Assembly: GCF_963678975.1 (NCBI RefSeq)
Contig: NC_089274.1
Coordinates: 32,593,090 to 32,657,089 of the forward strand
Origin: Dysidea avara
Lineage: Eukaryota; Porifera; Demospongiae; Dictyoceratida; Dysideidae
Direction: 5' to 3'
DNA length: 64,000 nt
Each line of letters opens with the position of its first letter. Position 1 is the first letter of the stretch. A program made the position numbers and the translations under genes. The notes below the pieces were generated by a model. The model was not told the DNA's origin. It ran no database searches and was given only the letters and a program-made list of their open reading frames with translations. Positions 7,907-55,326 of this stretch are shown here, one piece after another.

Positions 7907-7919
7907 CTCCACACACACA

Positions 7920-7951
<32 letters not shown>
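7907..7951. repeat. (CACG)n microsatellite
   Basis: Roughly nine units of cacg/acgc follow a short ca run. Confidence 0.95.
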
Positions 7952-7952
<1 letters not shown>

Positions 7953-8094
7953 CCTTATATCGTATGAGTTTATAGACGAATAGTCTATAATACACCGTCG
8001 CCCGGTTATGGACTATATGTCTATAAACGCAATTCGCTACATATAGACTATTACTCTATACCCTCGATATAGAGTATTTCTCCATACAAACTAC

Positions 8095-8200
8095 GGGACC
8101 ATTGGAAGCGCGCACAGTGCACTTTCATTGGAAATCCTAACACGAGGCCTGCAGAAGGGGTAGAAGAGGCCTAGAATAATTGTCAACACAGTAAAAGACA
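8095..8200 (+). promoter_or_regulatory. Putative promoter and 5' UTR of the CXXC gene
   Basis: A GC-richer patch immediately upstream of the ATG at 8201, containing CATTGGAAA (an inverted CCAAT-like box near 8120) and a GCGCGC run. No TATA box is obvious. The assignment is positional inference. Confidence 0.35.
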
Positions 8201-8258
8201 ATGGCTGGCGAGGCACTAGACATTCAACCTCAGATGCTGATCGAAGCGACAATAGAAG
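8201..8258 (+). CDS. Exon 1 of the CXXC gene
   Basis: ATG in context GACAATGG, 19 codons plus one base, then donor AAG|GTCAGT. The leftover base joins AA at 9918 to make GAA (Glu), so the phase matches exon 2. The N-terminus MAGEALDIQPQMLIEATIE has no targeting signal. Confidence 0.75.
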
Positions 8259-11200
8259 GTCAGTTTCTACTATGGCGGGGAATTAATATAATATGGTTGT
8301 AGCTGAAGGAAAATATTAAATACGTTAGGCAAAATCAGGGTAGGGAATGTGTGGTAAAACTGATTTCCACCTGTTTGCTTGTGTGTGAGTCTCGTGTTGC
8401 AGTGGTGATCTTTAAATTGAGAGGGTCAAGGCAGAATAAAAATCATACTTAAATAAATTATTCACCACTGCAGAATATTTACTTGTTGGCTGATATTAGG
8501 ACTGCAAAGCAGGAGCTGGAGTGTTTCAGATTGAGAATAAACTCATCATATATAGGATATGTCCTACAGACCTTCAGCACTTGTGCTGTAAAGCATTAAT
8601 AAATAAAATAAATAAATGTGCATATTATTATGTGAACGAAAATGATCAGTATAATAAGATTAGTGGCATGCCAAGAATTTTTGATGGTAAATGACTATCA
8701 TGAATCTCATACAAAAGTACGGGTAACAAATCTAATTTGGACTATAACTCTCCACATGAACTATGGATGGGGCTCCTTCTTCCAGTTACTCTGTTATACA
8801 CATAAAGGAATCAATCCCTCTGGAGAAACTCTTCTAACTGGTCTACTCTGCGATTCACTCTTTCTATGCATACCTACAATACACTGTTCACCATCGTGAC
8901 ATAAGAAAATATCACGTTTTTATGAATTTTTAAACATAATTGTCACTACTAGGCACTTCTCTATACATACAGTTGTAAGTACTGTATGAAACAGAATAGA
9001 GTACCTCTACTACTAGGAAATTACCATGTAATAATGTATCACTCAGTTAAGAAGTCACTCTAACTAGTCTCTGATATCATGAGATGCACCACTCCGTGTC
9101 AAAAGTGCCAAAAATTTGTATATGGCACAGACTGCAGAGAGTCCGTTATACATTATATCACTGCTTGTGGTTTCTTACAACATTACATAAGTACCGGCAA
9201 CCAACACCATTACAACACCTCACTTGACACTTTAAAGTTAGATTGAAAGTGTTATAATGCAAAATTCGATTGTTTAAGGGTATAGAACAGATGTCATAGC
9301 AGTCAATGGCAATCTAAAAAGTAAACACTGTAGCTCTTTAGTCTACATGTATATACGTATGTATATGAATGCATGCGCAGTTAATAGTCTGACTCTATCT
9401 TCACAGTTCACCTTATAATTCATTCCTAAAAGCTAAATAAACCTCACCATTACATTTGATTGCGACAACCAGTTTTTTGGCTTGCCAAGAGTGTAAATGT
9501 TGTCATGTTGTCGCATTAAGACCATGATCAGTATTAGCATTCTACCTTATACAGAAATGTAGCTGTGCAGTCTAATATTGAGTGAGTGGTACAGAATAGG
9601 TATACAATCTTTGTTTTCTGCCTGCACTCTTGCATTTATATCAGGCAGAGTACAAGTGCATGCTAACTACTAGGTATTGTTGCCAAACAACTCAGCTAAA
9701 GCTTAATACAGTAAAGAAACAATTACACTGTTACACATGGAGATGTGAAGTGTCAATTGCTTAATTAAAATATTTTGAATACCAATTGGCCATGGGGCCA
9801 TGAAATTGCATCCATGCATATACAATGACCTATTGTTCTAACTGTATTGAGAAATAGTATAATAGTAGTGCTCCATATATTGTGCTTTGTAATCGTGTCA
9901 TTGTTAATGGCTAATAGAACAAGTTTCAACTGTGCCTACTAAACGGTGTCAGCACTGTGGGCATCAATCTCACATTCGTTGTGAATTCTGTGGTGGCTGC
10001 GAAATGAGATTCCCTGAATCACAGAAGAGGCTAGCTACTGGCCCACCCAGGAAACATGCCACTGATTTGCTATCACAACTGTACAAGAAGGTATGAATCA
10101 ATTGTATAAAAATGTTGCCACATTACAATTTGATGAGCATTAAACAATAGCATTGCACTTGTACTATTTGATACTCTTGCTCAAACAACATGAATGTTGA
10201 TGAAAAAAGAGGTTGATAAATTGAACGAATCAGTTAGATTCAGTATCCATAATTACCTTTAGAAGTGCTGTGTATTTTCTTGATTTATGTCAGTCAGAAA
10301 TTGCTGTCATACGGTAGAGGTTTAATAATGGCTTGGCAGACATTTCATTAAAACTAATATTTTATTATTAAATCCCCTGGCCACAGAGTGACAATGTATG
10401 TATGTAGAACACTACTGTTTTTGTTAACTTTTGTCCAAACTCATGGCTTGTATTTATAATCAGTGGCTTGTACTTGCTTCTTCTATTAGTTTTCATTGAA
10501 AATGCTGTTGAACATATACACTGTAACTAAAAATAGTCAGGATGTGCATTAATTTAGATGAAAATAATTATTTAGCCTGGTGCTTCTCTTTCTTTTGATA
10601 TGACATGCGAGGTTTTGTGAGTCATAATCATGTTACAATAAGTGAGTTAACAAAGGAGTACAAGGAAAATTTTAGAATTTTAAGATCAATTGGTAAAACA
10701 AGATGCCTACATCTCCAAATATACTGTCATGGTTATAAATTGGTAGGGATTAAATGTGTGCTAGTATTTCTTCAAGTGTAGACACTTGCTTGTTTTATTT
10801 CTATGATTCCGAATTAGGCTTTATAAACCGGTGGCCACTAAGACAGGCTCCACAACATAACTATTAGGTATCACTAACAACTACAAAGAGTTAGCTAGGT
10901 TGAACAGGGAGTTCAAGCTAACTTTCCCTGTATCCCTTCATGTGTAAAAAAGAAGGTAATTCTGATGTGATATAATCAAACAACCATAGCTATTTTCTTT
11001 GTACAAACTCTATGAGCAGGTGAACTGATGATGGCAATATCCACAATGACGTTTCTTTACGTTGTGATTACAAAATTTGATGTTATAATTGACTAAATGG
11101 CCATGTTAGTGTAGGGCTTTAAATACTTTGGCGCATAATATTCGAAATAAATGTTGTCTGTAATGTTTTACACATGGAACCACGAGATAATAAAGGTAAG

Positions 11201-14200
11201 AAGTAGTACACGTACCGTAACAGTTCAAAACATGCTCCAACAAGGAAAGCAGACCGAAAATTTTAAATTTGGAGACATCTATGCTTATTTGTATTGCATT
11301 ATATACTATATGCCTCACCTTCGCCCTTTTTCAAATTTGTAAACGTTTTCATAGGGAACATTATCTCGCCCGATACTTCCTTGTACAAAGTCCCACACTA
11401 TGGTGGCCATTTTGTTTTGTGACATCATAGATATACACGAAACGTAATCGAAACGTCATTGTAGATATTGCTCATTTCACTGTGTACAGAAGTGATTAGT
11501 ACACGCATATGTTGTGTCATAGATAATGTACCCCCCTGGATTGGAAACTAGTAAACGCCACTGGTTACAGGCTGGTTTCGCGCCCCCTTCAAGTTTCTCT
11601 GGGCAAAAACAAGACTCACCACTGGTAAAGGGTTCTTCTCAAGGTGTTTTGGAAGCCAACAACGAGTTTCGAGGCAAATTGCCTCTTTATTGTACGAACC
11701 GTAGAAGCGAAACCGAACGTGAGATCAGATGGTTTGGACACATTCAAGGAAAATACTGAAATCCTGTACGCTATGCCCTTCGTACTCTGACCGCTCAAAA
11801 TAACCGGAAAATTATGTTCTGCAGTAATTGCAGACTAAAATGGACTTTGTCCTGCAGTTACTGATTGTTGGCCTGCACTTTGCAATGTTACAATATGATT
11901 GAGGCATTGAGGCAAGCAATTTTGCTTGCCCAAGTTTATTAAGCTTGTTCTTGTAGTTCACACCTTGTTCCTATGTTGATTCTAAGTAGTTCCAGCTGCA
12001 CACACTTGTCACAAGATATGCTATTGTATTCAAATGCCAGGCAGTAATTGCAGATCAAAGCAAATTTTGCTCGGCTATTCGTGGCATTTGTACTGAAAAT
12101 TGCCAACTGCCGACCATTATTTTGAGCTCTGTACCATGGAGCATTATTTGATGACTTCGTAGTATAAATTGTGCAGCGATACTGTTTAGAATCACAAAGA
12201 GAATGTGCTACAGTTTTGCCAAAAATGCCATCCCAAAAACCTGCCAAAGAAGTTATGGGAAGGCATATTGTTTAGCCAAGCTTATTCTTTATAGCATAGT
12301 TAACCTTGTGATACTTTCTTTTTCTACCTACAGCGCTTAGTTTAGCCAAGAATGTGCTTCCAACTAAGCATGTAGTCCGCCATTGTAAGCCTTCTGACCA
12401 ACAGTGACACGAAGTGGTCAAACTAACCAAAACAATTATCATAACAGCACCACAAGTCATTCTCGTAACAAAATAAAGTCATTAATGCCACCGTTCCGCT
12501 GTAATAGGATTAAATTTGTTGAGGCGCGAAACCAGCCTAAGGACACTGGTTCTTGTACAAAGTCTATGGGTGCACGGCACAGTTTCCAATCCAGGGAGGT
12601 ATATTATTTATGGTTATGTATGTAGTACATGTGTGTACTATATGTATTTCAATTCACTGATGAATATATAGCAAAATAGAATTTACAGATTTTTACTCAG
12701 GACACATAGTATTAATGGTTTTACCATAAAATTTTAGGCAAATCAACTTAACCAAGTTGGTTATGACATCGTTATTTTGGGGCACAAGGTCAACCAAAAG
12801 AACCAATCTTACCCCATTATGGGAACCGATGGACCCGCGAAAGGTTTTTTAAGAAGGTTTGAAAATGTTTCAAAGCTCTGGAGGCTCTACTTTGGTGAGG
12901 GTACTGTACATTAAAGATATACTGTATCTACTTACATGCGCATGTATAATATTGATGTAATATTGATATTCCACTGCTGTGAATTGTAGCACAAGACAAA
13001 TACATAGTTATCAATTGAGGAAATCATAGTATACATTACTGACATCATTAGAAGACAGTTATTGTTTATTTGTCCACTGAACATATTATGTTCAGTGAAT
13101 AATAGCAACTACGTAGCTACAGGCAGCCAGGCACATTGTTTACTACTTTGTTGCTAAGGAAGTGCAATTTGAACAAACCATTTTTTCGCCAAAGTATTGA
13201 CTGGAAACCAGCCTCATCTTTATTGCACCTTGGCAGTATTGGTCGGTAGAATCAAGCCCAAAAGTGTCTTCAGAATGGCCAAATATGAGACAATTTTATT
13301 TAAAAGGATTTTTTTCTGACTGATTGGCTATTAACTAACCTACACACTCACTAGTGCTTTCAGACAAGCACAACTCTAATTTTTTTCAAGGTTAGATATT
13401 GATTCAGCCAGACTAGTGCTTTTTGCATACCACAGAACATGCAATACACACGTCATAGACATGCCTTGTGTCCCATTTGTCCTTGCTGACAGTGTAAGGT
13501 GTAAATTCACAGTAGTGTGGATGGATTTCCATCTTTTTCATAGTGACTGTATTGATTACAGAGGGGTTTCTGCTATTCTTCATTAACAACAATGTGTAAT
13601 GGGCTGAACATAACTGAAAATGAAGCAAATTGGGTTATTCATTTACGCTAATTGATATTTTGGGTGTACATTCATACAAAAATATTTAGTGTGGTACTGG
13701 CCACTCCCCTCTTTCTTTTGATGTGGTACACCCATGTATGTGTTGGTTCATCAGACAAAAAGTAAACGAGCAAGTAGAAGGAAAATAGGAAATTTTAAGT
13801 TTGGTAAAAATAAATTAAAGAAACAATAGGAAAGTGACTACACCTTATTTAATTTTAGGAAGGTAGGTGGAAGGGGGGCAGCAGCATTTATTTTGACACT
13901 GTGAATACCACAATTCAAGGTTTGGCATCAGTAGAATGATGTTTAGTGAGCAAGAGAGGGTTGACTAGTGTACTTGATAGTGTTAGTACAGGGTGTATGG
14001 CACCCAAAATTCAACATGGCTATCACTTGTTTTCTCTATTGTAATAAAAGCCCTTAATATATTTTTAGCATTGTGATCTGCACTAAAAAAACTTACTGAA
14101 ATAAATAATTCAGATGATTTCAATGCTTTGATAGACTGCAGAAAGACTTTTCCTTGTACGTGCTTCTCATATGGTCCTCAGTAATGCTGTATAACAGGCA

Positions 14201-17030
14201 GAATGTAGCTGAGATTGAAGTAGAATCGCAGATAATGCATTGCAGTAATTGTTAGTCAGAGGCACATTTGAGGCACTTCTCATTCTGCTCTTCATCATTA
14301 ACACTGTATAATGTGTGGAACATAGCTGAAAACGAAGCAAAATGACCACTCCATATTCCAGTCCAGGCCCGCATTTTTTGAGCCGTATAGAGTAGGGATG
14401 ATAGAAATAAAAAGCAGGTCACAGACACCTGCAGCTATAATAGTGGATGTGTAATCCCTAGACTATTTGAATGTGGTATAACTGCAGCCTCCCTTGTTTC
14501 ATTGCTTTTATTCTTATTCTAATTTGTGAAATTTCTAATTTTATGTTATAGTTATAACTTACAGTTATAGACCACAGATTGACAGTCTTGCTTGGCCTTA
14601 CAAGTCAGTAACTTGGTCCATGTCACACATTTTCATCATGATTGTATATAAACCAAATTAATTATTTGGATCATTTACCATCCCAGAGTTCTACTTGCCC
14701 ACCTTAAATACACATTGGCCAGGTTTATGTGTACCTCCCATGTACCAACATTTTCCATAACACTAATAAAGCTATCACATATATCAATTTTTAGATAATG
14801 ATCAGAGTACAGGTACGTGAGATAGTGATACTAGTCAGTTAACAACAGAGATACTTCTCCACTAGTTGTGAACGGAAGTCAGGAGGGTACAGGTATGTGA
14901 GACAGTGATACTAGTCAGTTAACAACATACATTTTACCCCACTAGTTGTGAACGGAAGTCAGGAGGGTACAGGTATGTGAGACGGTGATAATAGTCAGTT
15001 AACAACAGAGACTTTTCCCCACTAGTTGTGAACGGAAGTCAGCAGGGTACAGGTATGTGAGACGGTGATACTATAGTCAGGTAACAACAGAGATTTTTCC
15101 CCACTAGTTGTGAACGGAAGTCAACAGGGTACAGGTATGTTAGATGGTGATACTAGTCAGTTAAGAACAGATTTTTCCCCACTAGTTGTGAACGGAAGCC
15201 AGCAGGGTACAGGTATGCTAGATGGTGATACTATAGTCAGTTAACAACAGAGATTTTCCCCCACTAGTGTGTGTGAACGGACGTCAGCAGGGTACAGGTA
15301 TGTGAGACGGTGATACTATAGTCAGGTAACAACAGAGATTTTTCCCCACTAGTTGTGAACGGAAATCAGCAGGGTACAGGTATGTGAGACGGTGATACTA
15401 TAGTCAGGTAACAACAGAGACTTTTCCCCACTAGTTGTGAACAGAAGTCAGCAGGGTACAGGTATGTAAGACGGTGATTCTAGTCAGTTAATAACAGATT
15501 TTTCCCCACTAGTTGTGAATGGAAGCCAGCAGGGTACAGGTATGTAAGACGATAATAATAGTCAGTTAACAACAGAGATTTCCCCCCCACTAGTTGTGAA
15601 CGGAAGTCAAGAGGGTACAGGTATGTTTGATGATGATACTAGTCAGTTAACAACAGAGATTTTTGCCCACTAGTTGTGAACGGAAGTCAGCAGGGTACAG
15701 GTATGTGAGACGGTGATACTATAGTCAGGTAACAACAGAGATTTTTCCCCACTAGTTGTGAACGGAAGTCAACAGGGTACTGGTATGTTAGATGGTGATA
15801 CTAGTCAGTTAAGAACAGATTTTTCCCCACTAGTTGTGAACGGAAGCCAGCAGGGTACAGGTATGCTAGATGGTGATACTAGTCAGTTAAAAACAGAGAC
15901 TTTCCCCCACTAGTGTGTGTGAACGGAAGTCAGCAGGGTACAAGTATGTGAGACGGTGATACTATAATCAGGTAACAACAGAGATTTTTCCCCACTAGTT
16001 GTGAACGGAAATCAGGAGGGTACAGGTATGTGAGATGGTGATACTAGTCAGTTAATAACAGATTTTTCCCCACTAGTTGTGAACGGAAGCCAGCAGGTTA
16101 CAGGTATGTGAGACGGTGATAATAGTCAGTTAACAACAGAGATTTTTCCCCACTAGTTGTGAACGGAAGTCAGCAGGGTACAGGTATGTAAGACGGTGAT
16201 ACTAGTCAGTTAATAACAGATTTTTCCCCACTAGTTGTGAACGGAAGCCAGCAGGGTACAGGTATGTGAGACGGTGATAATAGTCAGTTAACAACAGAAA
16301 CTTTCCCCACTAGTTGTGAACGGAAGCCAGCAGGGTACAGGTATGTTAGATGGTGATACTAGTCAGTTAACAACAGAGATTTTCCCCCACTAGTTGTGAA
16401 TGGAAGTCAGGAGGGTACAGGTATGTATGTGAGGATGGTAATACTAGACCATTACAACAGAGATTTTCCAGTTGGTAGCAGAAGTCGGCAGGGTACAGGT
16501 ATGTGAGATAGTTATACTAGACTGTTTACAACAGAGATCTTTCCCCAATAGTTGTGAACGGAAGTCAGCAGGGCACAAGTATGTGAACTGTTAATGCTAG
16601 ACCATTTACAACAGAGATTTTCCACACTAGTTGTGAGCGGAAGTCAGCAGGGTACAGGTACGTATGTGTGGAAATAAACTTGCCTACTGTTTCTTGGGAG
16701 TGATAAGAAGCCCAGATATACATAATACATATTTGTACAATATTCATGATCCCTCAACCCTGAGACATAGACTCATTATTAATTAGTTCTCCTTGTGTTT
16801 CATTGAAGATGCTGTTGCTTTATGTAAATTTCATAACCTATCATAGTAGTGGGTATTGTTCCTACAGTATGTATTATGCGATTACTATGTCTATAGCAAG
16901 AAAAAAAAGAAAACGCCGCTGCGGAACCTGTGCTGGCTGCAGATCAGATAACTGTGGACGCTGCAAGTCCTGCTTAAAACCCACACTTAAGCAAGCGTGT
17001 GTTAAAAGACTATGTCTTTCTATGAAATAA
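8201..17030 (+). CDS. Split gene: zinc-ribbon-like / CXXC zinc-finger protein with microexon array
   Basis: Four main exons join in phase: 8201-8258, 9918-10090, 12738-12894 and 16897-17030 (stop TAA 17028-17030). Without the array this gives 173 residues. Exon 1 supplies a short N-terminus starting MAGEALDIQPQ. Exon 2 has a C-x2-C-x7-C-x2-C-x2-C cluster (zinc-ribbon-like). Exon 3 encodes about 52 residues I do not recognise (IVILGHKVNQKNQSYPIMG). Exon 4 encodes a basic stretch and a CXXC finger (CGTCAGC ... CGRCKSC). CXXC domains bind unmethylated CpG DNA, so a nuclear chromatin role is inferred. Exon 3 ends and exon 4 begins in phase 1, the same phase as 24 candidate microexons between them (14795-16657). 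With all of these included the product would be about 388 residues. The introns carry transposons (11531-12599 and others). A polyadenylation-like AATAAA follows near 17233. Family name unknown. Confidence 0.82.
8540..8618 (+). repeat. SINE 3'-tail fragment in intron 1 of the CXXC gene
   Basis: GTCCTACAGACCTTCAGCAC ... AATAAATAAATAAA, shared with the copies at 32915-33072 and 33160-33390. Confidence 0.75.
9918..10090 (+). CDS. Exon 2 of the CXXC gene: Cys-rich zinc-ribbon-like segment
   Basis: Acceptor CTAATAG at 9911-9917, donor AAG|GTATGA at 10091, 173 nt. It encodes 57 whole codons, including KRCQHCGHQSHIRCEFCGGC, which has five cysteines and two histidines that could bind zinc. A basic, polar helix-like tail follows (PPRKHATDLLSQLYKK). 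The frame is closed to either side beyond the splice sites. Confidence 0.85.
11020..11485. mobile_element. Inverted-repeat MITE in intron 2
   Basis: The left end contains GCAATATCCACAATGACGTT. The right end contains the complement of GCAATATCTACAATGACGTT. The interior is about 400 bp without a credible protein. The target duplication is unclear, so the superfamily is not assigned. Confidence 0.6.
11531..12599. mobile_element. 1.07-kb TIR transposon in intron 2 of the CXXC gene
   Basis: Inverted ends CCCCCCTGGATTGGAAACT (left) and AGTTTCCAATCCAGGGAGG (right), with further inner similarity (GGCTGGTTTCGCGCC on both arms). TA dinucleotides flank it at 11529-11530 and 12600-12601. The short open frames inside show no transposase motif, so it is probably non-autonomous. 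Confidence 0.75.
12738..12894 (+). CDS. Exon 3 of the CXXC gene: unrecognised conserved-looking domain
   Basis: Acceptor AAATTTTAG, donor TTTG|GTGAGG, 157 nt, 52 codons plus one base. It encodes a compact segment rich in hydrophobic and aromatic residues (VGYDIVILGHKVN, PIMGTDGPAKGFLRRF, SKLWRLYF). I cannot name the domain. The phase (0 in, 1 out) fits both exon 2 and either the microexons or exon 4. Confidence 0.83.
14795..16657 (+). CDS. Array of 24 candidate in-frame microexons (VVNGSQQGT repeat)
   Basis: A tandem array of about 80-bp units. Each has a pyrimidine-rich acceptor (TTTTTCCCCACTAG), a short block starting TTGTGAACGG and ending GGGTACAG, then a donor (GTATGTGAG). Block limits: 14795-14812, 14866-14892, 14946-14972, 15026-15052, 15108-15134, 15186-15212, 15268-15297, 15353-15379, 15435-15461, 15513-15539, 15594-15620, 15674-15700, 15756-15782, 15834-15860, 15914-15943, 15999-16025, 16077-16103, 16157-16183, 16235-16261, 16314-16340, 16394-16420, 16472-16498, 16552-16578 and 16631-16657. 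Lengths are 18, 27 or 30 nt, always a multiple of three. The gaps between them vary freely from 51 to 55. All blocks are open in phase 1, the phase of the flanking exons 3 and 4. Each encodes VVNGSQQGT or a close variant (Q/E, S/N, V-C-V). Splicing itself is inferred, not observed. Confidence 0.75.
14795..16680. repeat. 80-bp minisatellite array in intron 3 of the CXXC gene
   Basis: About 23 to 24 units of 78 to 85 bp, diverged by a few percent, oriented with the gene. The first and last three units are the most diverged, as expected for edge copies of an array that grows by unequal exchange. Confidence 0.97.
16897..17030 (+). CDS. Terminal exon of the CXXC gene: CXXC zinc finger
   Basis: The acceptor TGTCTATAG leaves CA, which completes a codon with the phase-1 base of exon 3 or of any microexon. 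The product is ARKKRKRRCGTCAGCRSDN, then CGRCKSC, eight residues, C, four residues, C, and ends LSMK. Eight cysteines in CGxCxxC-x4-CGxCxxC-x8-C-x4-C order define a zf-CXXC. The KFGG motif is absent, as in the short TET/CXXC4/CXXC5 class. An earlier acceptor at 16867 gives a stop in this phase, so 16897 is preferred. Confidence 0.85.
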
Positions 17031-17238
17031 TTTTATTGATCAACATATACTTTATGCACACTAAATGTTTATACCATGCATCAATGGCAATCGGATACCT
17101 GACAGTTGAAAATATCTATGTGCACCTTGTTTGCATTAATAATGCATTGCACATGTGGGTGAAGATTGCATATTGCAAGCATAACCCTGGTGTGGGTGCA
17201 TGTGTGTTTAGTTTATGCAGGTGGTACATGTACAATAA

Positions 17239-18600
17239 AATTATAAAATGATTGTGTGTTGTAATGTGATCACAAGTGGGCTATAATATAATCAGTGTAT
17301 GTGTATTATGGGAGATTGTGCATGTAAATGGATGTGCACAAATTTGGGATGTATAGTGGAGTGTGTTATGGTTAGGTAAGCAATGTTGATAATAACCACA
17401 TGTAGATTAAATATAAAGTTAAGTGCATACAAATAGGTTGGTACGTGTGATTGAATGTGTGCTTGTATAGACATGGTTCAGTAGCATCGTTGAATGCGAT
17501 CAGAAATCCAAAATGGTAGCAGAAATTACAGTGAAATAACATTAACTTGATGACAATGTCATATAACAGTAATAGTATATCACATCCATGTGTGTCAACT
17601 GTAAGGCATGGTCCAACCTGCCCAGGAGGATTTGCTTGCATTGACTCTCAGTACCTGAGTAGTGAACAGGTGTCTTATTGCTGATTCACTGGGTATACGT
17701 AGGTGTAATCATGGTAGCACGTTGGCTGAAAGTTTTGTGTTCATCTATAGCTACTTAGTGTTAGAATGTACAACGCAGCATTCATAGTTTATATAGCATT
17801 GGGTAGCTACATGTGTAGTATGTGAATGGCCCTGCAAAAGCAGAGCATTCATATGTGGCTCATAACCTCTAAACCATGCAATATTTTCAGGTGTGAACAG
17901 AATATCATTCTATTATGGCCGTTGCAATTATATATAGTTATGGTGAATCCAATGGCAACCTTTGTTATTATAAAAAAATAATTTGTTCATTATGCATAAG
18001 TTACAGAACACAAAATTTCGCTGCAATACTGAAATAATCCCTGTGGATTGTGTGGTATGTAGTATATAATACCCAAATGGTCAATTGGTCGCATCATGAT
18101 ATCCAGACTCTTAGAAGAGTTAAAGGTCAAACATAATAATTATGAGCATTTGAATGGATCCACGTACGTAGGTTCTGTGTTCATCTGTTCAAAAAGTTGT
18201 AACCTTGTCAAGCAGTATAATAATTTTGTGTACATGTGCAGGTCAAACATAGAGCATTGATTTATTCCCACAATCGATTTTGGTCTGAGCTTGTATAAAA
18301 CAAACAAAGGGTGGTACCACTACCTCATCTACATGCAAGTTGCTTTGATGAAAGTGGATTGCTCTTTTAGAAGTGCAACCACTTCCCAGGATACATTTCA
18401 ATGTACACCAGTGTACATTTAGATGTCTCCCTAGCCTGTGTTGAGGTATACATGGCAAATGTATCCTCTGGAATTCCTTTGATCTGAGATGTGAAAGTGC
18501 TACACATGCCCACAATTAGTGTCCATACATTTAACCATGCATAATTATGGACTTTGCTTGTTGCCTAAAATTAATGGCCACAGGTGAGACTGCATGACTT
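17239..18600. other. AT-rich stretch downstream of the CXXC gene
   Basis: No exon or repeat boundary that I can support. Several short open frames lack splice or motif evidence. Confidence 0.4.
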
Positions 18601-18612
18601 TTTACTGTAATT

Positions 18613-18745
18613 ATTAGAGTGGAACCTCCCTTATCTGGACCTCTATTATCTGTGCATCTCCATTGTCTGGACAGCCCAAAATAATCTTGTGGCTTGTAAT
18701 CTAGATATGTTGACCATATGAAGTTATATAGTTGATTCTCTGGAT
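18613..18745. mobile_element. pogo/Tigger-like fragment
   Basis: Begins GAGTGGAACCTCCCTTATCT, the AACCTC-type terminus. No matching right end was found. A similar fragment (CAGTGGAACCTCTCTTATCT) lies at 19251. Confidence 0.55.
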
Positions 18746-19057
18746 CAGAATCACACAATGATTTGGAACACTGGATTTATTTCTTTTCCCAACACTTTAC
18801 CACCTAGTGCTAGGAGTGGTGGCAAGGCGGCAAGGGATACTGGCAACCTTGGATAATAAAAACAATTGGAACACTGAAACCTTGTACATCATCAATTTTG
18901 TAATTTAGTTTTTTCCACCTGCTGTTCAGGGTAGATAAATTACGTTGATGAAAGACTTGAAAAACTATCATGGTCTTTATAGCACATGTACGGTCATGCT
19001 GCAAATCTCTATTTTCTCTGTTTCATACTAGTTGATATTATTATGATCGTTCCTACA

Positions 19058-19235
19058 CTGAAACCTCTCTAATCCGACACCTCTGTAATCCAGAATATAT
19101 ATAGCTCTATAATCTGACATTGTCTTGTATACCAAAAAGACTTTTTCTATATAATACTACCTCAATAATCCGACATCCTTGCTAATCCAACACAGTTTGT
19201 CTTACACCATGAGTATCGGATTATAGAAGTTTCAT
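19058..19235 (+). mobile_element. pogo/Tigger-like MITE, copy 1
   Basis: Starts CACTGAAACCTCTCTAATCC and ends ATTATAGAAGTTTCATTGTA. The middle (TTGTATACCAAAAAGACTTT) matches 21753-21925 in direct orientation and 21573-21745 in reverse. TA-type flanks. Confidence 0.75.
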
Positions 19236-19639
19236 TGTAAACTGAATGCAGTGGAACCTCTCTTATCTGGGTAGTCTGGTACATATTACTGTCCGTATCT
19301 CAGAATATCCACAACTAATAATGCTAAATACACTAAAGTAACTGACTTAAATACAAGTAATGTACATTGCTATTGCTATCAGTTAGTGCTAAATGGGCAG
19401 AAGAGGCAGTGGCTATACAGAACATTCATGGCCACTCCCCTGGGCTGTAAGAAATGTATTATCACGTACCTATGTAGCAACCAAGTGGTTATTAGTGGAA
19501 TAAACAAGCCACCTATATCAACCTTTGGGCTCCCTCCTTGTGCTTTCATCTAACCCATGCATCGAATTTGGCAGCTTTAACATTTCTTCCAATGGAGAGA
19601 ATTGCAAATTGTAGAACTTATTGTATACATGATATAGTC

Positions 19640-20480
<841 letters not shown>

Positions 20481-20768
20481 ACCATGCAATATTATTCATA
20501 CACCTAATGTACTACAAATGTTCAACTGCCTTTTACTTTTCACATCTTTTTTGTCATTTTCCTATATACTTTTACTCTGTACTGCAGTTCTCATTAATAT
20601 TATGTACTACAGGTTGATATACATAGTCCAGACAGATGTATAGGTGCAATTATGAAGACAAAATTACGTGTAAATACAGGAATGAATAAAAAATATCAGC
20701 TGACAATGATTATGCAAGTGAACAGTATAGCTGCAGTGTGAAAAGGTGCAAAATGCTGTATACATCCA

Positions 20769-28745
<7,977 letters not shown>

Positions 28746-28940: not shown

Positions 28941-31900
28941 TTTTTTTTTTTTTTTACCCGGGCTTGATGGACTGCCCTTGCCTACCACCCCCAGCACATA
29001 AATGGCCTGTGCTGGACAAACCGGGACTTTCTTAGTCCACGGCAAACTGAGACTCTGCCCGAATCAGCTCCACAATTGGGGGAGTCTTAACATAGTGACC
29101 GATGGATGAGCGGGCTCCGCGGATGCATTGTATGGAGGACCGCAAGAGAGAAAAAGATAGACAGCACCTTAACCACCCCATGACAACAGAGTAATCATCG
29201 CCCCACTTGTTTGAAAGTTGATGAGCCAAGCGTTGATAAAAAACAGAAGCCTCATGAGCCAGACCACCAGAGGCAGACATTACCAGGGGGGTAAAAGAGG
29301 CATGCTCCTCCTCACGAATTCTCTGAGCATACGCACGTTTCTTAATGTTCTCGTGCCTCCGATAACAGGAGGCCAGTGATGAGGACGCATTAGAAGCAGC
29401 CAGAGGGTTGAACACCCGCACATCCACAAAACATCTTTCACTTCTTCCACCCCAAAAACCATTCATGGCGATGTCAAGACGGGCACCATCTTGGATATTG
29501 GCAGAAGCAGGGTAGTCCTGCTGTGAAACCGGCTGGAGCTCTGGTTCAACAGCTACCTGAGAGCATACTTCAGTCAACAGGGTAGCAGTTAGATCTCTGA
29601 TCTCATTGTGTCGGATAGAAGGTAAGCCACCCTTGGGACAGGATAAAGCATGCTCCACTGAAAAGGAAGTCCCACATGCACAGTGAGCAGGAGTCCGCTG
29701 AGGAGACCACCCATAACGTAGTGCCACGGCATCGTGAAACGCGGACTTATGCAGTGCAAAGCCATGTTCCTGTAGGGGCCGGGTGGTAAGCCAGTTGGAG
29801 GCCCCTTTGGCTGAGGCTAGATCTAAAGCGCGTTGAGAGGAGGGATCTAAGTGGGTACGCAAACTGGAAGATCTATCCGAATAGTTGGAAGATTTGGAAT
29901 TGCGGATTGCGGACTTGCGAGATAGCTGTTCTGTTTTAACAATAGCCGAATTGATACCCCGGTCCAGAATGAATTGTGAAAGAGGCTCAGCAATGTGACA
30001 CGAGGCTGAATACTCCTCAGCTGCAATAAGAGTTGGGTTTATGATACCCAAACCACCATATCGAGGTGGAAGGGCAAATAATTTACGGATTGTGTCATTT
30101 GGTGGAGAGCAACCCATCAAAGTAGGGATAAGTACCAGCCGGATGTTGTCCTCAAGGGGTTGTAAAGCCTCTGATATGTTTGGAGTAGTGCGACAAAGGT
30201 AGAGCCAATGGCTTGACAAGCCATGAGTGAGAGCGGAATAAGCAGCATGCGGCTGAACTTGTGCGAACTTGGCAAGCCGTGTAATCTCTGCTGACCAACC
30301 AACAACCTTGTCCCTCACAAATTCCTGGACATAAGCGTTTGAACCAATGGCAGCCCCAAGGTAGGGACGGCCCGCAGAAGTAATTTGAACATCAGTATCT
30401 GAGAACAGAGTAGTAGCAATTGAATGGAACCTTTCCTTAGAAACTAACCAAGTTTTAGGAGCATTCACAAAATAGCCAAAAGCAGGTCCCTTAATACAGA
30501 GCTGGTTCCACCAGATGAGCAAGTCCTGTATACTGCCACAAGCACAAGCATCATCAGCATACCAGACCTGGTCCACTGTCCCATGAAGTTGATTGATTAA
30601 AGGCACTGTAGCAAGGGCATACATAGGCATAGCTAGTGGGTCTCCCTGTGTAGTACCCTCCTCTGATAAAATAACCTCCCCAGAAACAAGCAAAGAGGCT
30701 GGAGACCTATAAATATTGATCAGAATAGTGGAAAGTGGCGGGCACAGTTGTCTGATGTTGTGTAGAGCCACCAAACGGTTCAGCGAGTTAAAGGCATTGG
30801 AGGCGTCCACCAGCAACACAGCCTCAGTGCTTCCTTCCTCAAAAACCTTTCGGACAGCATGAACCGCAGCCTCCGCCCCAGAAAGTTGCCCCGCACAAAG
30901 TTGGTGTGAACCAGCTGCCTCCTGAATGTCATCCCGCAGGATGACCAGCACAGCCTTAGCAACAATACGTCTCATAACCTCGCACACACCAATAGGCCGC
31001 ACCCCAGGATTTTTATCCAAAGCAATGAGGCGACACACCAAAAAAGGCGAGAGCAAATCTGGGGAGAGGAAAACAGTACATAAACGACGAGCAAATGAGG
31101 ACATTGCAACACACAATTCACCTGAAGCAGAGTGGAATGAGGTACAAAGTCGACGCCAACCACGAGCGTCGATCCCAGAGGGTCCAGCCGCACCAGATGT
31201 TCGCAAAGCAGCAGACCTGATAACAGCAGCATTAAGAGAAGAGAATATAACAGGGTGTACGGATGGTGGGTCAGCCCAATGCTGTAGAAGACACTTAGGA
31301 TCCAAAGGCTGAGCTGGAGGATGTTTAGCCCGCAGAACATCGCGAACACAATGGCCGGGAGAAGCAGAATCAGCTATCTCATCCAAGTTTAGAACTCCAC
31401 CACGTTGGTAACCTGAGACTAATCGTAAAGCAGCCTTGGTTTTACCCTCAAACATTAGCTTAGAAAAGTTACGTACAAGTTGTGCCTCACTTAGTTTTGG
31501 TAAATGGCTCTTGAGACGACCCTGTATAGCTCCTCCCTCAGTAACCAGTTCAAGTAGATTCCCATCCTTCCACTGTTTCAGCCGCTGCTCCAATAGGAGA
31601 GTGTGATCCTTGTCCTTAGATGTGCGGCTTGGCTTCTGGAGCAGTAATATACAAACCACAACAATTGCCTTAAGGGCGACAGATTCCAGGGAAGAACCCT
31701 CACCTACAGCACGAAACAAACGAGCCAGTTCAAGTACAAAAGCCTTACCAGCTGAACCCCGTGGAACTGCAAAACTGTTTTTCTTCCAATGTATCACTTC
31801 CAAATAAACTTTATCCAATTCTGAGATAAAACAGCTTCCATCAAGATCCCCCCACTGAAAGTTAGGCTGAACCACAGGTTGAAAATCAGGTAGGTCAACA

Positions 31901-32090
31901 CCTGACGAATTGTTCAATAGAATGTCGTTGGAGTTGTTAGAAGTCAAGCAGGGGGCGTTAGGTTCTTCCTCCTCGTCAACCTGCGCGACGGATGAGGGAC
32001 TTTCCTCCCGGAGAATTGAACTCTGCGGATCCAAGCTGGCCCTCGAGCTAGCCTGGAGTGTCGCATTTGGTTCAAAATGGCAACGACGCC
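28941..32090 (-). mobile_element. R2-like (RLE-type) non-LTR retrotransposon
   Basis: About 3.15 kb on the minus strand, ending in a poly-A tail (T-run 28938-28955 on plus). It is flanked by a 12-bp direct repeat TGCGGAATCTTT at 28929-28940 and 32091-32102, and part of the A-tail may belong to it. It lies inside one arm of a palindromic MITE, just upstream of the KDZ gene start. An intact frame and clean duplication indicate recent insertion. Confidence 0.87.
29032..32090 (-). CDS. Reverse transcriptase / restriction-like endonuclease polyprotein
   Basis: One uninterrupted frame of about 1020 codons. RT landmarks in order: GVRPIGVCEVMRRIVAKA, VLLVDASNAFNSLNR (catalytic D), GTTQGDPLAMPMYALA, and VWYADDACACG (the YADD catalytic box). 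The C-terminal quarter has a CxC-x7-H-x4-C knuckle (CACGTSFSVEHALSC), RHNEIRD and DGARLDIAMNGFWGG ... CFVDVRVFNP, matching the PD-(D/E)XK restriction-like endonuclease of R2-type elements. The enzyme nicks DNA and primes reverse transcription at the nick. No N-terminal zinc fingers and no ATG are seen in roughly the first 200 codons. It is either slightly 5'-truncated or uses non-AUG initiation as proposed for R2. The nearest family could be Utopia-like, which I cannot confirm. Confidence 0.9.
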
Positions 32091-32318
32091 TGCGGAATCT
32101 TTGCAATACAAGTCACCAGAAACGTCACCTATCAAAGTTGGGTGACGCATTTCAAAGTTTCTCAGTTGGCGCTTTACAGTTTTGGTGCAAACATTCCGCA
32201 AACCTCACTATCATACAGTAAGAGACCTTGCGCGACAACAAAAACAAGCGAAATCACGTACACAAGATTTCGTCCAATCAAATCAATTCGTTTTTGAAGT
32301 TCAAACTAAGGTCGTAGA

Positions 32319-33984: not shown

Positions 33985-34392
33985 GTAGTGAACGTCACTA
34001 CTTTATGTAGTGACGTTCACTACTTTTAGATTCACTACAACGTAGTGAATTATCAAAGTAGTGAAGGTCACTACCAATGTAGTGACGTTCACTACATTTT
34101 AATTCACTACGTTGTAGTGAAATCATAATGTAGTGACGTTCACTACAAAAAGTAGTGACGTTCACTACATTTTAATTCACTACATTGTAGTGAAATCATA
34201 ATGTAGTGACGTTCACTACAAAAAGTAGTGACGTTCACTACATTTTAATTCACTACATTGTAGTGAAATCATAATGTAGTGACGTTCACTACAAAAAGTA
34301 GTGACCTTCACTACATTTTAATTCACTACATTGTAGTGAAATCATAATGTAGTGACGGTCACTACAAAAAGTAGTGACCTTCACTACATTAT
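33985..34392. repeat. TAGTGACGTTCACTAC palindromic tandem array (left)
   Basis: More than a dozen copies of the palindromic unit GTAGTGACGTTCACTAC alternate with ATTCACTAC.TTGTAGTGAA. There is an approximately 67-bp higher-order period (for example 34127, 34194, 34261, 34328). Confidence 0.93.
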
Positions 34393-36060
34393 AAATTTTT
34401 ACTATACATCAATATAACAGCATGTTAAGAACACTGTTACTGTCAGTAACATTTAACATTGGTATATAAAGGACAGTTTCTGAGGTATCATAACAGACTA
34501 TAAACCAAAATTGCAGGTTGATAGACTTCTTTAAATAAAATGTTACCTCTGAAAAATGACAACCTCTTTATAACAGTATGGTCACAAAGTGTCCACTAGA
34601 AGTATCATCTGCATATTTCACCACAACTATGTAAACTTGCTGTGTATTCACAGTAGTATAGGCTAAATGTAGCAAAACCAAACAAAATATCCGATTGTAC
34701 ATATGTGGGTGTGTGTGTGTGTGTGTGTGATAACACTGGAAAACAGCAGTCATGTATTGTAGCCTCAGATTTTCTATTGGTAGGGACTATACAGTACATT
34801 TGATAAATTTCTGATTTGAAGATTAAGATTCCCACCTGAAGCCATTTATTGAAGTGAAAAGGATGCTTATAAGAAGATACTATGAGTTTGCACATGCATG
34901 AAAGATCACATGACAACCTTTAGAAATTTGCAGGGGATATGGTATGGGATGCTGCTGTCAATGCTAAGGAGCTAGGATTTACTTCACAAAGGACTTTCAT
35001 TCATTGATTAGGTTCAACATGTACTTCTGCAGGAACGTCAATGAAGTCTTTGCAGACATTCTACTAGGCTGTAGTAAGCCAAGTAAAAAAGTTTTGACTA
35101 CTTTTCTGGACATGGGGAAACTAGGCAAATCTGATGTCAAACTGTACTCATAAATTTTAGTATGTAAATGCTATAAATACCTGCATTTATGAAACCACTA
35201 AACTTTCACGTTCATGTAATCAAAATGGTAAATGTAAAATATTATATAACATCAACTATACGTACTGTTAAGTTTAACAATGGAAATATACGTATAATGT
35301 ACATACGTAACAAAAACACATCTTTGACCAGCTTCTGCATCTTTCATCCAGCAGCGGGCAGAACGAGTCTGTAAATGAAAAACAATATATCATGTACATG
35401 TATCTGGAAACATAGACATTTGTGAAATGTGCCTTGTTCTGTATTTATTAGGGATGAAAAAATTACTCGCTAAGGAAATTCACTCAGACAGTCTTTCTAG
35501 AATCCACTCAAACTAGCTCATTATGTCACACGACCATACAAATCCCCTTCTAGCCTGAGTATTCCTAGGGTTTGCAGGTCGAGACATGGTCGGGGTTTAC
35601 ATTGTCAGTGCTTACCCGGTAGGTGGGAAACTATAATTTTCAGTGATGCAAATCCCCACCTTGGCCAGGCAATAAGAATGTAAAGCTTCTCTAATTGCAA
35701 GTCCTGATTTTGACTTGAAAGGCAAGCCATGCAAATGGTAACCCAGAACCTTTGCATTATGCAATGTTTCAGAGTCTAACTGTTATGCTTTAATTTATAA
35801 TACAAATACTGTATTGCCTTGAGTTATGCACCTATCAGTGTAATCCCTGACTATACCACTGATACGGGATGAGGTGGAGGCAAACAGGCTGTGTGAAATA
35901 GTTCACTTGTGAAGGTGGGTTGATATTTCCCTGGTTGAGAATATGTAGCTGACACAGATAGATAGTCTGGGCATGTGAAACTATGTTGGGTGGAGGTGCA
36001 TGTGTGTAGAGTATTTTCTGTCCAGCTTTAGACTATAGAACAAGTGCCCGCAAACAACAT
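34393..36060. other. AT-rich interior with one candidate exon
   Basis: Contains a short (GT)n at 34706-34730 and the candidate minus-strand exon 35307-35368. Nothing else supported. Confidence 0.4.
35307..35368 (-). CDS. Candidate exon paralogous to secreted-protein exon 2
   Basis: Acceptor ATTTACAG, then TRSARCWMKDAEAGQRCVFV, then donor GTATGT (phase 2). The pattern C-x-MKD...EAG...CVF-V repeats that of the exon at 37407-37547. It looks like a duplicated or alternative exon of the same gene. Expression unknown. Confidence 0.5.
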
Positions 36061-40400: not shown

Positions 40401-43400
40401 TTGTAAGCAAAGTAACTTGAGTTATATTACTCGTTTTTATAACGTATTTTGTTATATTTAGTTACCACAAAAGTAATAATATTACGTAACGCGCTACTAA
40501 TGTAACGTGTTACTCCCAACACTGCTGATAGCATAGGGGAGAGTGTACGTTTAATCTACATGGTCAACCTTTGCTGTGGAATGCAGGAGAAGCAGCCCTA
40601 GGTATTGTTTTACTCTTATGAAAAGCAATGCTATCAGGTTTGCAAAACTGGTTGTACTCCAAGATGGCGGATGCTGCTATGGCAGCAGCTCACCTGCGAA
40701 GGGTCTATAGCCATACCAGGGATGGCGATGACCAGGGTTAGAGCCCTGGTAATCAGTCAAAGCACCGGTAATTTGTCAGTGTAAAGTGCTATTAGCCCTG
40801 GTAATAACATCTTAAAACCTTCGTAATTATGAAAGGCTGGCCATAGACAGTATATTGTACGTAGAATATACTATCTATGGGCTGGCTAACGCCCATTAAT
40901 TCAAATGTGTGTTTACAGTTACAGCTTGTTTACTTACGATTTTAAACAGACTAATCAGGAACGGTTGATTACAGACGATAAACACTATAGATCTTCAGAT
41001 ACAGACTGCATAGCACTAAGCAGTAGCACCAGAGGTAGCACCTCGAGTAGCATCATGTCAAGGAAACTCTAAATAATGCCACATAAAATTGATGACGTCA
41101 TCTACTTGGTAACATCGTTGCTCACTTAGTTACGTGCTGTAGAAGTCGTGTAAGTGGAAGACTAATAATTGTTCTTTTACTTCTGTTTTCTATTGACTAG
41201 GGACTGTTTCGTAACTGTGACGTGCGGTCAGGTGGCCGCAGAGTGGTCTCTCGAGTCAACTGAGTAGGCTAGGCAGCTTAGCACTGCGTACCTAGTAGCT
41301 GTTGCATTTAGCAAGTGGTTAACAATTCAGAAAAGTAAGTCTTAAATTGTAATTATTTGTTTTACACTTTTGCACACGTAGACTACCCCAGCCTGCGAAG
41401 TTGGCTGCCCGCCAATTTCCCGGCGCCGGCACTGTAGTACCAGAGCCGAGAGGTGATGAAGTTTGGGGCTTTCATTTTAATATACCATAAGGTATAGCAC
41501 ATAGTAACTGAATTGAGTGATGGAGTACTGACACTTATGGTGTGACTGGCGGTTACTTACAAACTGGATTGTCACAGTGTACACTGACGTATTTTAGCTT
41601 TCTGACATACCTGAGCTTCACGGTTTTACCACTACTAGCTAATCACTTTTTTTTTGTTTTCTGTATGTATGCATGTTTGTCAGTTTTGTTCTTGTATTTA
41701 CCTTGCCGTTCCCACGCAGATCTTTTACTACGATCTGATTGTGGTTGCATGAGACCGAGGTCGCACATACTGTAAGCTAACTCTAATTGTGTTTTCTCAT
41801 TTATAATAATGATGGTTCTCTCTCCATGCAGTAGCCGATTGATATTCATTGCAGTGGTGTATACCTGTGGGGTACTGCTGTGTGTCTGCAAGTGTTTAAG
41901 GTTTGTAGCTTTAAACAACCATTCTGCAGTTAAAATGTTGTTTGGCAGTTTAGGTAATACTGACTTTCCATTGGTAGCAGTTTTAAACAGGTAAATGCTT
42001 TAGCTTATTACATTGGAGATTGTTTACGATCTTTGTTTCTTGATATAGCGAATACTGCAAGACTAGCAAATGAAACAATTTGCTATCACTATACTGTGGT
42101 TACTAATAGGAACTGATCTAATATATCAGATGGTTATACCATGCACCCATCCCTTACGCACAGTTGTGCAATAGTTGGTAAGTGCATATATGTTTATCTC
42201 ATATTACATATCAACAATTATTTTATCACAGCATAAATCATGTACATCTGCTCTATTGTAGCTATGCTGGTAAGATTTATTTAGCTACCATAGTTTGTAT
42301 TATATTGTTATATCTTGCAGTTCAATGAGAAAACTTGCAATATACACTGCACAGTATCTGATGCATCTTTGCTGCTGCAGAATCTTCTCACAAGAAATTT
42401 CTGGACTAACATGTATGCACCTATACAAAAAAACTGACATTTTGTATACATGTATTTTTACTTGTATGCAGTATTGTTTTTAATGGAATTCTATGGTGCA
42501 TGAATGCATAAACTGGATGCAAATGCGATGTAGTGAAATCACCGCAAATAAGTAGTGACGTTCACTGTAAAACAGTAGTGAAGTTCACTACTAATGGCAC
42601 TGCAAGTAGTGACGTTCACTACAGTTGGTAGTGACGTTCACTACAATTAGTAGTGACGTTCACTACTTTTTTGTAGTGACGTTCACTACAAAAAAGTAGT
42701 GAACGTCACTACACAAAAATAGTGAGTATTGTGGCAGAGATTTCACTACTAATTAGTAGTGACGTTCACTACTTTGTTTTTACTGTGCGGCACAGGGTTG
42801 CTTTCTTTGAAAAAACACAGACAAAGAAATACGAAGTTTCGAATTCAAACTGTCCTACCACCCAGGGCAAGAGAAGCCAACTATTCCTCATAGTGTTTCG
42901 ATACGGTTGGGTGCATAGTCTGTTTATGCTGTTAGTTTGGAAAAGATCTGAGACTTCTCACCATCTGGGCGACGAGCGTCAAAATTTTCTGCAGCATCAA
43001 AGAATTGTGTCACTCTTTCTAGCCATTTCCAGCGCTTCTGCAGCCACAACAATCATCAATTATAGACTAAAACTATGGAAAAAGATGTCCCTGAACGTTT
43101 GGTAATAGCGGTTGTCAATTATTGTTTCATCCACAGCTTCCACGCCTCGCTCTAAGCTATGCATCAAGGGAGGCAGCAAAATCGTCCAAATTTGACTTCA
43201 CCTCTCACGCTCCACAACAGCTTCAAGTTTTCACTAGATCACCCTACATCACCATTATGCTTCAAAACATCCCAAAACAAACCGAAAAATGTACAATTTT
43301 TGATTCGAGCTGGGTGGAGCTCCTGGTGAGCTGCTGGTATACTGCATCATATGAAATCACAGAAATACCAACTACTACTACTACCAAACGTTTTGAACCA

Positions 43401-53689: not shown

Positions 53690-54519
53690 AATAGAGCAGT
53701 CACCCTAATAGAGCAGTCACCCTGTAGAGAATACAACAGATCAGCTAGAAACAAGTAGCCTGTATAAAGATCAGCTAGAAACAAGTCACCCTGTAGAGAG
53801 ATCAGCCAGAAAAATTCACCCTGTAGAAAGTTCAGCTAAAAGAAGTTACCTTGTAGGGAGTTCAACTATATACGGAAAGAGGTAGTTCAGCTAGAAGAAA
53901 TTACCTTGTAGAGTTCAGATACAAACAAATCTCCCTGTAGAGAGATCAGCTAGAAGCAGTTTGCTCAGCTACAAGCAAATCATCCTGTAGAAAGATCAGC
54001 TAGAAGAAGTAACCTTGTAGAGAGTTCAGTTACAAAGAAACCACCATGTAGAGAGTTCAGCTACAAACTAGTGACCTTGTAGAGACATCAGCTAGTAGAA
54101 GTTACCTTGTAGAGAGTTCAGCTACAAACAATTCACCCTGTAGAGACATCAGCTAGAAGAAGTTACCTTGTAGATCGTTCAGCTACAAACAAATCACCCT
54201 GTAGAGAGATCAGCTAGAAGAAGTTACCTTGTAGAGAGTTTAGCTACAAGGAAACCACCATGTAGAGAGTTCAGCTGCAAAGAAATCACCCTGTATAAAA
54301 TTCTGCCTCAAACAAATTGCCCTGTAGAAAGATCAGTTAGAAGAAGTTACCTTGTAGAGAGTTCAGCTACAAAGAAACCATTCTGTAAAGAGCCCAGCTG
54401 CAAACAAATCGCCTGTACAGAATTCAGCTACAAATAAATCACCCTGTAGAGAGATCAGCTAGAAGAAGTTACCTTGTAGATCGTTCAGCTACAAAGAAAT
54501 CACCCTGTAGAGAGATCAG
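53690..54519. repeat. 31-bp tandem array, block 1a
   Basis: About 26 degenerate units of the type TGTAGAGAGATCAGCTAGAA + GAAGTTACCT, alternating with TTCAGCTACAAACAAATCAC variants. Confidence 0.93.
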
Positions 54520-55326
54520 TAGGGACCCGCCGATTATGCTCATAATTTTACCTATTATGCTATGCTGCACTGCTCAAATATTTACCTATTATGCTTAAAT
54601 TTATGCTCAATACTTACCTATTAGGCCAATGAAACTTGATTAGCAGTTTCGCGTCATCGCCCGCATGCTTTTGATACACCCGCATGGAATTTCATTATTG
54701 GTATTTCAGATCGAAATACTCTAATAGAACAGTCACTTTTACTCTAATAGAGCAATCAGCTATACTCTAATGGAAAAATCACTTGTTATAGATTAGTAAC
54801 GTACTTTAGCTATTTAATGCAAGAATAATCAGTGTAGATCTCACTGTTTTTTGGCAGAAATCTTCATGTTTGGATGTGTGTTGTGCTTTTGGAAAAATAA
54901 TGAATAATGAATAATAACCGCCCGCCCGCATCAAATTTTCAAAAATCTGAGCGAGAAACTGGTAATCAAGTTTCATTGGCCTTATGCTCAAATTATGCCC
55001 AATTATTTATGCCTCAGTTCTCATGCTCTGCTAATAATTTCCAGTTTATGGATAAATAACAAGTGGCTGAAGCACAAACTTACTTGTCAAAATGCATATC
55101 ACAGAAAAGATCGATATATTCTAATAGAACAGTCAGCTATGTGATTGTTCTATTAGAGTTACTGACTGTTCTATTAGAGTATATCGATCTTTCCGTGATA
55201 GCTATTTTGATAAGCAAGAATTCATACTATTATACAAATATTCTGCCTATTATGCTAGCATTATGCTCAATGCTTTCAGGCACCTATTATGCTCATAATT
55301 ATGCCAGCATAATCGGCGGGTCCCTA
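54520..55326. mobile_element. hAT-type element inserted in the 31-bp array
   Basis: Ends TAGGGACCCGCCGATTATGC and GCATAATCGGCGGGTCCCTA. Exact 8-bp duplication GAGATCAG at 54512-54519 and 55327-55334, made from array sequence. The interior repeats ACCTATTATGCT words and holds a small palindrome (55108-55195) of the CTCTAATAGA motif. No transposase. Confidence 0.92.

Follow-up and report, generated by a model that had tools for sequence, protein, structure and literature searches.

Coding minisatellites and variable-number tandem repeats (VNTRs; e.g., those of a prawn lectin or of MUC2) consist of tandem units and give rise to proteins of variable length. Tandemly repeated exons encoding 81-base repeats were reportedly the subject of a study from 1988, to judge by its title. 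In the micro-exon genes (MEGs) of Schistosoma, which are described as coding for secreted proteins, many short exons (6-81 bp), mostly multiples of three in length, are separated by introns whose length ranges from 100 to nearly 5000 bp (PMC10526429). For the teleost piccolo b gene, the amplification of one zinc-finger exon 8 to 16 times has been described, with the copies in the same phase and their number varying by species (PMC3484663). Here we describe an array of predicted microexons from the sponge Dysidea avara, which is found in a 64,000-nucleotide stretch of contig NC_089274.1 (positions 32,593,090 to 32,657,089; this whole stretch is referred to below as the window), precedes the last exon of a predicted gene for a CXXC zinc-finger protein, and is carried by a giant DNA transposon of the KDZ group (Table 1).

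The sponge array resembles the MEGs, as these have been described, in its many short exons whose lengths are mostly multiples of three, the sponge exons being predicted ones, and it resembles piccolo b in the repetition of a same-phase exon in variable copy number. It differs from the MEGs in that its predicted introns measure 51-55 nt instead of 100 to almost 5000 bp; moreover, as far as described, MEGs are not transposon genes and do not contain a minisatellite composed of an exon and a short intron. The exons of piccolo b, in turn, are 702-1350 bp long in zebrafish, are in frame 0, belong to a host gene, and do not form a minisatellite according to the available account. Coding VNTRs differ from the sponge array because the sponge unit includes an entire predicted intron; with 80 bp it is not a multiple of three, and the spliced part alone keeps the frame. 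The original prediction for this locus had stated that no system of this kind has been described, which is too strong a claim, since tandem in-frame exons are known from schistosome MEGs and from piccolo b; what would set the sponge array apart is its hyper-amplification within a transposon gene. Among the literature matches listed (titles and abstract openings), there was neither a hyper-amplified exon array in a transposon gene nor a CXXC gene in a KDZ element, and the term "CXXC" is absent from the main text of a paper on KDZ elements (PMC12730594).

On the plus strand of the window, 24 repeat units can be parsed at 14795-16657, each of them a short block with an acceptor before it and a donor after it. 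Their block lengths (27 nt in 21 units, 30 nt in two and 18 nt in one) and their spacers (51-55 nt) are those that had been predicted. Every block is followed by GTATG or GTACG, and none of the 24 contains a stop codon in phase 1. Even the most diverged unit (16472-16498; acceptor TTTTCCAG) was found at its predicted location with an open block of 27 nt. Tandem Repeats Finder (TRF) provided a second, independent detection of the array (period of 80 bp; 23.2 copies). An unspliced reading straight through the array was considered and rejected, because the unit is 80 bp long and the frames close. The flanking exons fit the phase of the blocks, as had also been predicted: inspection by eye placed the end of exon 3 (12894) in phase 1 in front of GTGAGG (TTT G/GTGAGG), and the CXXC exon likewise starts in phase 1 (16897).

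Against the Pfam family zf-CXXC (PF02008), the CXXC exon scores 26.3 bits (E=7.7e-6), which falls 0.2 short of the curated cut-off of 26.5; one diverged genomic copy of it reached 22.4 bits. Its closest solved relative is TET3 (E=1.1e-4), and the TET3 and HRX fingers both align over nearly the full length. When the genome (551 Mb in 108 contigs) was searched, the CXXC exon was matched at 31 places. The encoded protein was 100% identical at six of these (window included), which lie on six contigs, and 97% identical at a seventh; in this window family, the CXXC exon is positioned about 240 bp past the array. The remaining 24 matches are diverged (41-56% identity).

The same 80-bp array is present at no fewer than seven further genomic places (C12, C11 twice, C13, C4, C5 and C7), so that nine arrays in eight copies could be compared, the array of C4 being interrupted. 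With the end units included, the number of units amounts to 24 in the window, 33 in C12, 60 in C11a, 27 in C13, 101+16 in C4, 57 in C5, 21 in C11b and 20 in C7. Among the 348 parsed units of the nine arrays, 345 have kept both splice sites (AG and GT), and their blocks are 27 nt (334 units), 30 nt (nine units) or 20 nt (two units, an identical pair) in length; 340 units are fully intact. Hence, 343 of 345 blocks keep the frame, while 166 of 342 spacers deviate from 53 nt by a number not divisible by three, so block conservation exceeds what chance would yield. Invariance is higher in the four GT..AG columns than in four random intron columns (P = 0.0024). Nucleotide diversity increases from codon position 2 (0.047) over position 1 (0.089) to position 3 (0.119), a value close to that of the core intron (0.106), and is lowest in the acceptor (0.008). 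Collectively, the frame and the splice sites look guarded, and the amino acids look only loosely so.

The array is not restricted to one gene; it has spread with a mobile element that covers the window from position 7950 to at least 28500, a giant DNA transposon with at least eight genomic copies. From 7949 onward, the window matches seven other loci at mostly 94-99% DNA identity, and in the four copies whose fetched sequence included the left end, the match starts at 7949-7953, with unrelated flanks beyond. The termini of the transposon read CAACC...GGTTG. The distance between its two ends is 24.2 kb in C5, 25.9 kb in C12, 33.3 kb in C13, 34.4 kb in C4 and 52 kb in C11, the longer copies containing insertions or longer arrays, and the array is placed between the terminal repeats in all five copies for which both ends could be placed. 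Reading by eye of the five copies with both ends revealed 7-bp target site duplications (TSDs) that are exact in C5, C12 and C4 and agree in six of seven positions in C13; there is none in C11a, where the left end is altered.

The Pfam family KDZ (PF18758; cut-off 26.6 bits) was matched with 67.9 bits (1.3e-18) by open pieces that come from the right half of C5, run antisense to the CXXC gene and were joined with X between them. The corresponding match in the window was read across introns and holds three stops. It is one of at least 39 KDZ matches genome-wide. For at least ten of the 31 CXXC loci, a KDZ match is present within 30 kb, compared with about 0.4% expected per locus by chance; the ten CXXC-linked KDZ matches listed are all downstream, nine of them convergent and one on the same strand. 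Among the seven window-family copies that retain the CXXC exon, at least five have an over-cut-off KDZ match within this distance.

Within the KDZ group, two fungal Kyakuja families are reported to have 7-bp TSDs and 5'-CA..TG-3' termini but no terminal inverted repeats (TIRs), Zisupton has an 8-bp TSD, and some fungal KDZ elements carry TET/JBP genes (PMC12730594); Zisupton elements have been described as multi-exonic (PMC9297572). The sponge element shares with Kyakuja, as reported, the PF18758 transposase, the 7-bp TSDs (8 bp in Zisupton) and the CA..TG termini, and its accessory gene is tied to CpG biology, as is the TET/JBP of some fungal KDZ elements. It differs from the two fungal Kyakuja families, as reported, in its TIRs of about 152 bp, and from KDZ elements, Kyakuja in particular, in its size of about 24 kb or more and in its cargo, which is no TET/JBP enzyme but a CXXC-finger gene that contains the array of predicted microexons. 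We therefore call it Kyakuja-like, and not Kyakuja proper: it is a KDZ transposon with termini of the Kyakuja type, long TIRs apart, the Kyakuja part of this assignment being set by terminal features.

To look at the more distant relatives, we examined 16 of the 24 diverged CXXC matches with about 1.4 kb of sequence around each. In each of the 16, the acceptor of the CXXC exon is in phase 1 (by eye). TRF repeats of the array type lie upstream of the CXXC exon in ten of them (L040-L043, L045, L047, L048, L050, L051 and L052), although the repeat of L050 comprises only 1.9 copies and is located more than 1 kb upstream. Locus L053 has no tandem array; its CXXC exon is preceded by a pair of short exon-like blocks (24 and 57 nt) that occurs twice, with a space between the copies, which may represent an incipient array. 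Of the two 57-nt blocks in L053, the second is decayed. The unit sequences of the diverged arrays are unrelated to those of the window, and each unit is nonetheless built of a short block between acceptor and donor; this recurrence of the same architecture in relatives with unrelated unit sequences is a further indication that its conservation goes beyond chance. Typical block lengths are 42 nt in family F2, 30 nt with in-frame variants of 24 and 18 nt in F3, 30 nt in F4, F4b and F6, 60 nt with in-frame variants of 63 nt in F5, 75 nt with one of 74 nt in F7, and 24 and 57 nt in F8; a single block of 29 nt in F3 is the exception to the in-frame variation of F3 and F5. We parsed these arrays with family-specific end patterns that require recognizable ends, and we retained the second block of F8b (43 nt, without an AG acceptor) in the count as a failure. 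Frame-breaking homologous arrays had been named as evidence that would contradict the original prediction, which withstood this check in its core: among the 104 parsed blocks, 101 are multiples of three (three are not), and 99 lack a phase-1 stop (five have one). Read in phase 0, almost every unit of F2, F3 and F4b contains stops.

In order to limit hindsight, all AG/GT pairs of each repeat consensus were also scored blindly with a generic splice model. The best-scoring pair enclosed a block that is a multiple of three and open in phase 1 in eight of eight families, compared with 432 of 2384 shuffles (18%). Two of these families, F4 and F4b, are related to each other, and the consensus of F7 was shortened to 120 of its 131 bases for this test, the loss being entirely in the spacer.

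We infer, with a probability of about 0.8, that the array consists of genuine microexons which are phase-1 symmetric, are translated and encode a variable linker in front of a TET3-like CXXC finger, that it is filtered for frame, and that it grows by unequal exchange. Each unit would represent an exon of 27 nt (rarely 30 nt) with phase 1 at both ends, followed by a minimal intron of about 53 nt. Since such exons both start and end in phase 1, any number of units would keep the CXXC finger in frame, each additional microexon adding nine residues without disturbing it. The predicted linker is rich in Ser, Gln, Asn and Gly and would join a conserved exon to the C-terminal finger; it may tether the finger, may be tuned in its length, or may simply be tolerated. 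The gene itself would be an accessory gene, arranged tail-to-tail with the transposase of the giant Kyakuja-like transposon. Unequal exchange would multiply and homogenize the units, so that copies come to differ several-fold in their number, while units that break the frame or the splice sites would be purged because the downstream finger would be lost. Symmetric exons combined with unequal exchange would thereby account both for the range of 20 to 117 units among copies that are a few per cent apart and for the emergence of novel unit sequences family by family.

Several observations weigh against this interpretation. Distinct nonsynonymous variants in the window family are as frequent per opportunity (30 of 59 possible) as synonymous ones (10 of 19), with no significant excess at the third position (p = 0.13); any selection still acting on the amino acids is therefore weak, if it exists at all, and the proposition that many differences between the units are silent is only weakly supported. 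Eight of the 348 units are defective (three lack a splice site, two are 20 nt long and three carry a stop), some of them having been duplicated, and the C5 copy possesses 57 units without a CXXC exon. At five of the 16 diverged loci (L039, L044, L046, L049 and L054), no array was found in the roughly 1.2 kb of upstream sequence fetched. Units without both ends, some of which are visible in L042, fall outside the 104 parsed blocks, and for F3, F4, F4b and F7 the best pair of the blind test uses an acceptor different from that of the parsed block, which ranks second. As to intron size, a CCT gene of the host has neighbouring exon matches that are separated by a clean gap of 76 nt in one case; shorter gaps elsewhere in host genes (41-59 nt) could be frameshifted copies, and introns of about 50 nt may or may not be usual in this host. 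A junction-pattern search for spliced retrocopies of F1, F3 and F5 found none, a result that is uninformative.

The equal frequency of both classes of variants and the persistence, even duplication, of defective units would suit a relic, i.e., an ancestral phase-1 symmetric exon that was duplicated by minisatellite growth, with the arrays now being skipped as intron and the open blocks of a multiple of three merely inherited. We regard this as unlikely: the blocks of the different families are unrelated by eye, yet they have retained their length rule, phase 1 and an open frame, and neither the invariance of the splice-site columns nor the rarity of frame shifts in the blocks compared with the spacers would be expected of it. 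A role at the DNA or RNA level, with the array providing binding sites for the transposase or the CXXC protein, a source of small RNAs or a splicing-coupled boost of expression and with the frame being incidental, appears highly improbable. Arrays of binding sites do occur in mobile elements, and the repeat at issue is tandem and internal to a transposon; what the families have in common, however, is splice sites, length in multiples of three and an open phase instead of a sequence, and a shared binding site is unlikely because their unit sequences are unrelated. That an ordinary host gene had expanded an exon, with the transposon as a bystander, can be given next to no credence and was rejected. 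The closest solved relative of the finger, TET3, is a host protein; this reading is contradicted by the dispersed copies, namely the position of the array between the terminal repeats in five of them and the protein-identical CXXC exon at six loci on six contigs. The original prediction is thus partly supported: the frame evidence speaks for a CXXC-finger gene with phase-1 symmetric microexons, and its placement in an ordinary host gene does not stand because the gene belongs to the transposon.

Our preferred reading, a run of translated microexons, can be taken further. In a stronger form, the number or choice of units would be regulated through alternative splicing or array length, and the array would be selected for because it sets the reach of the CXXC finger or yields many isoforms per copy. 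We find this doubtful. Arrays or repeated short blocks precede the CXXC exon in 11 of the 16 diverged loci, copies with matching stretches of mostly 94-99% identity hold anywhere from 20 to 117 units, and the skipping of symmetric exons would be harmless; tolerance combined with unequal exchange predicts the identical pattern, however, and the amino-acid constraint is weak. Quite tentatively, one may also imagine that KDZ transposons of an animal-like lineage carry a self-renewing linker generator, a minisatellite in which each unit combines a whole phase-1 microexon with a minimal intron; it would produce new repeat peptides and lengths in each family while the frame is held, with exon choice or number setting the reach of the finger or yielding isoforms against host silencing.

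If our interpretation is correct, the same minisatellite would be at once a DNA repeat, a splicing substrate and a protein repeat, and exon number would range from 20 to over 100 within a single young transposon family. The arrays would then put the spliceosome to a natural test, with 27-nt exons that are nearly identical, number in the dozens and alternate with introns of around 53 nt, and would allow one to ask whether exon arrays grow through usefulness or just through the harmlessness of a symmetric phase. A CXXC finger gene would likewise join the cargo of KDZ elements and link this group to CpG biology in a second lineage. Gene finders and repeat maskers may both overlook such genes.

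Table 1. Positions of the CXXC gene, its microexon array and the surrounding transposon in the window.
Feature	Position	Strand	Basis
Giant KDZ transposon, window copy, from its left end up to the assembly gap (right end outside the window)	7950..28500	.	DNA identity to other loci
Left TIR, CAACCTTATATCG..., ~152 bp	7950..8102	+	Bases 1-152 inverted at far end of other copies
Cys-rich (zinc-ribbon-like) exon, exon ends approximate	9923..10090	+	Homologues, 44-69% identity
Exon 3 (start is the open-frame start, not a proven acceptor)	12738..12894	+	Homologues in diverged elements
Predicted microexon array, 24 units (18, 27 or 30 nt), introns 51-55 nt	14795..16657	+	Parsing and TRF
Last intron, array to CXXC exon	16658..16896	+	98.7-100% identical in six other copies
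CXXC zinc-finger exon including stop codon, phase-1 acceptor	16897..17030	+	Pfam, solved relatives, copies
Segment of the KDZ transposase domain (convergent to CXXC gene)	25059..25358	-	PF18758, 28.5 bits, over cut-off
Assembly gap, 200 N, cutting the element	28501..28700	.	Sequence

Upstream of the array, relatives of the Cys-rich exon are found on the same strand 9-14.5 kb in front of the CXXC exon in three diverged copies; the match of this exon to the Pfam family DZR (E=0.0065) is below the cut-off of that family. Homologues of exon 3 in diverged elements are 42-79% identical across most of the exon, which has no match in Pfam up to E = 1. Relics on C15 with a 64-79% identical exon 3 showed no array within the 4 kb fetched. 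At L048, inspection by eye identified an exon with a phase-1 donor, a 55-nt gap, another array and then the CXXC exon. We take this upstream exon to be a putative distant exon 3, because it and exon 3 of the window both match C4 at 33.6 Mb and C14 at 2.0 Mb; it also has a match 3.5 kb upstream of the F2 CXXC exon, and a genome search with it did not return the window family itself.

The right terminal repeat of the window copy was not found on its contig, and the two sides of the assembly gap, the left one of which is transposon, may therefore not be true neighbours. At its other end, the window copy abuts a (CACG)n tract (7910-7949), as do two more transposon ends (C2:42833896 and C2:43031434), which may reflect either a common insertion preference or mis-joined pieces of a single insertion. 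Nested inverted repeats with arms of 327 bp and 290 bp lie inside the transposon at 21940-23295 and are also matched in other copies. Large minisatellites with a 31-bp period (TCACCCTGTAGAGAGTTCAGCTACAAACAAA) occupy 58254-62305 and 53738-55999 of the window, and relatives of them lie inside or beside the transposon copies C11a, C5 and C7. Tandem palindromic units (GTAGTGACGTTCACTAC) occur in two separate places (33985-34394 and 42604-42725), and a 51-bp tandem array of 11.6 copies, with several open frames, is located at 62563-63155. Just beyond the assembly gap, an open frame of 1026 residues on the minus strand (29032-32112) has motifs reminiscent of reverse transcriptases (YADD) as well as a Cys/His cluster at its C-terminus, and we presume it to be part of a non-LTR (long terminal repeat) retroelement.

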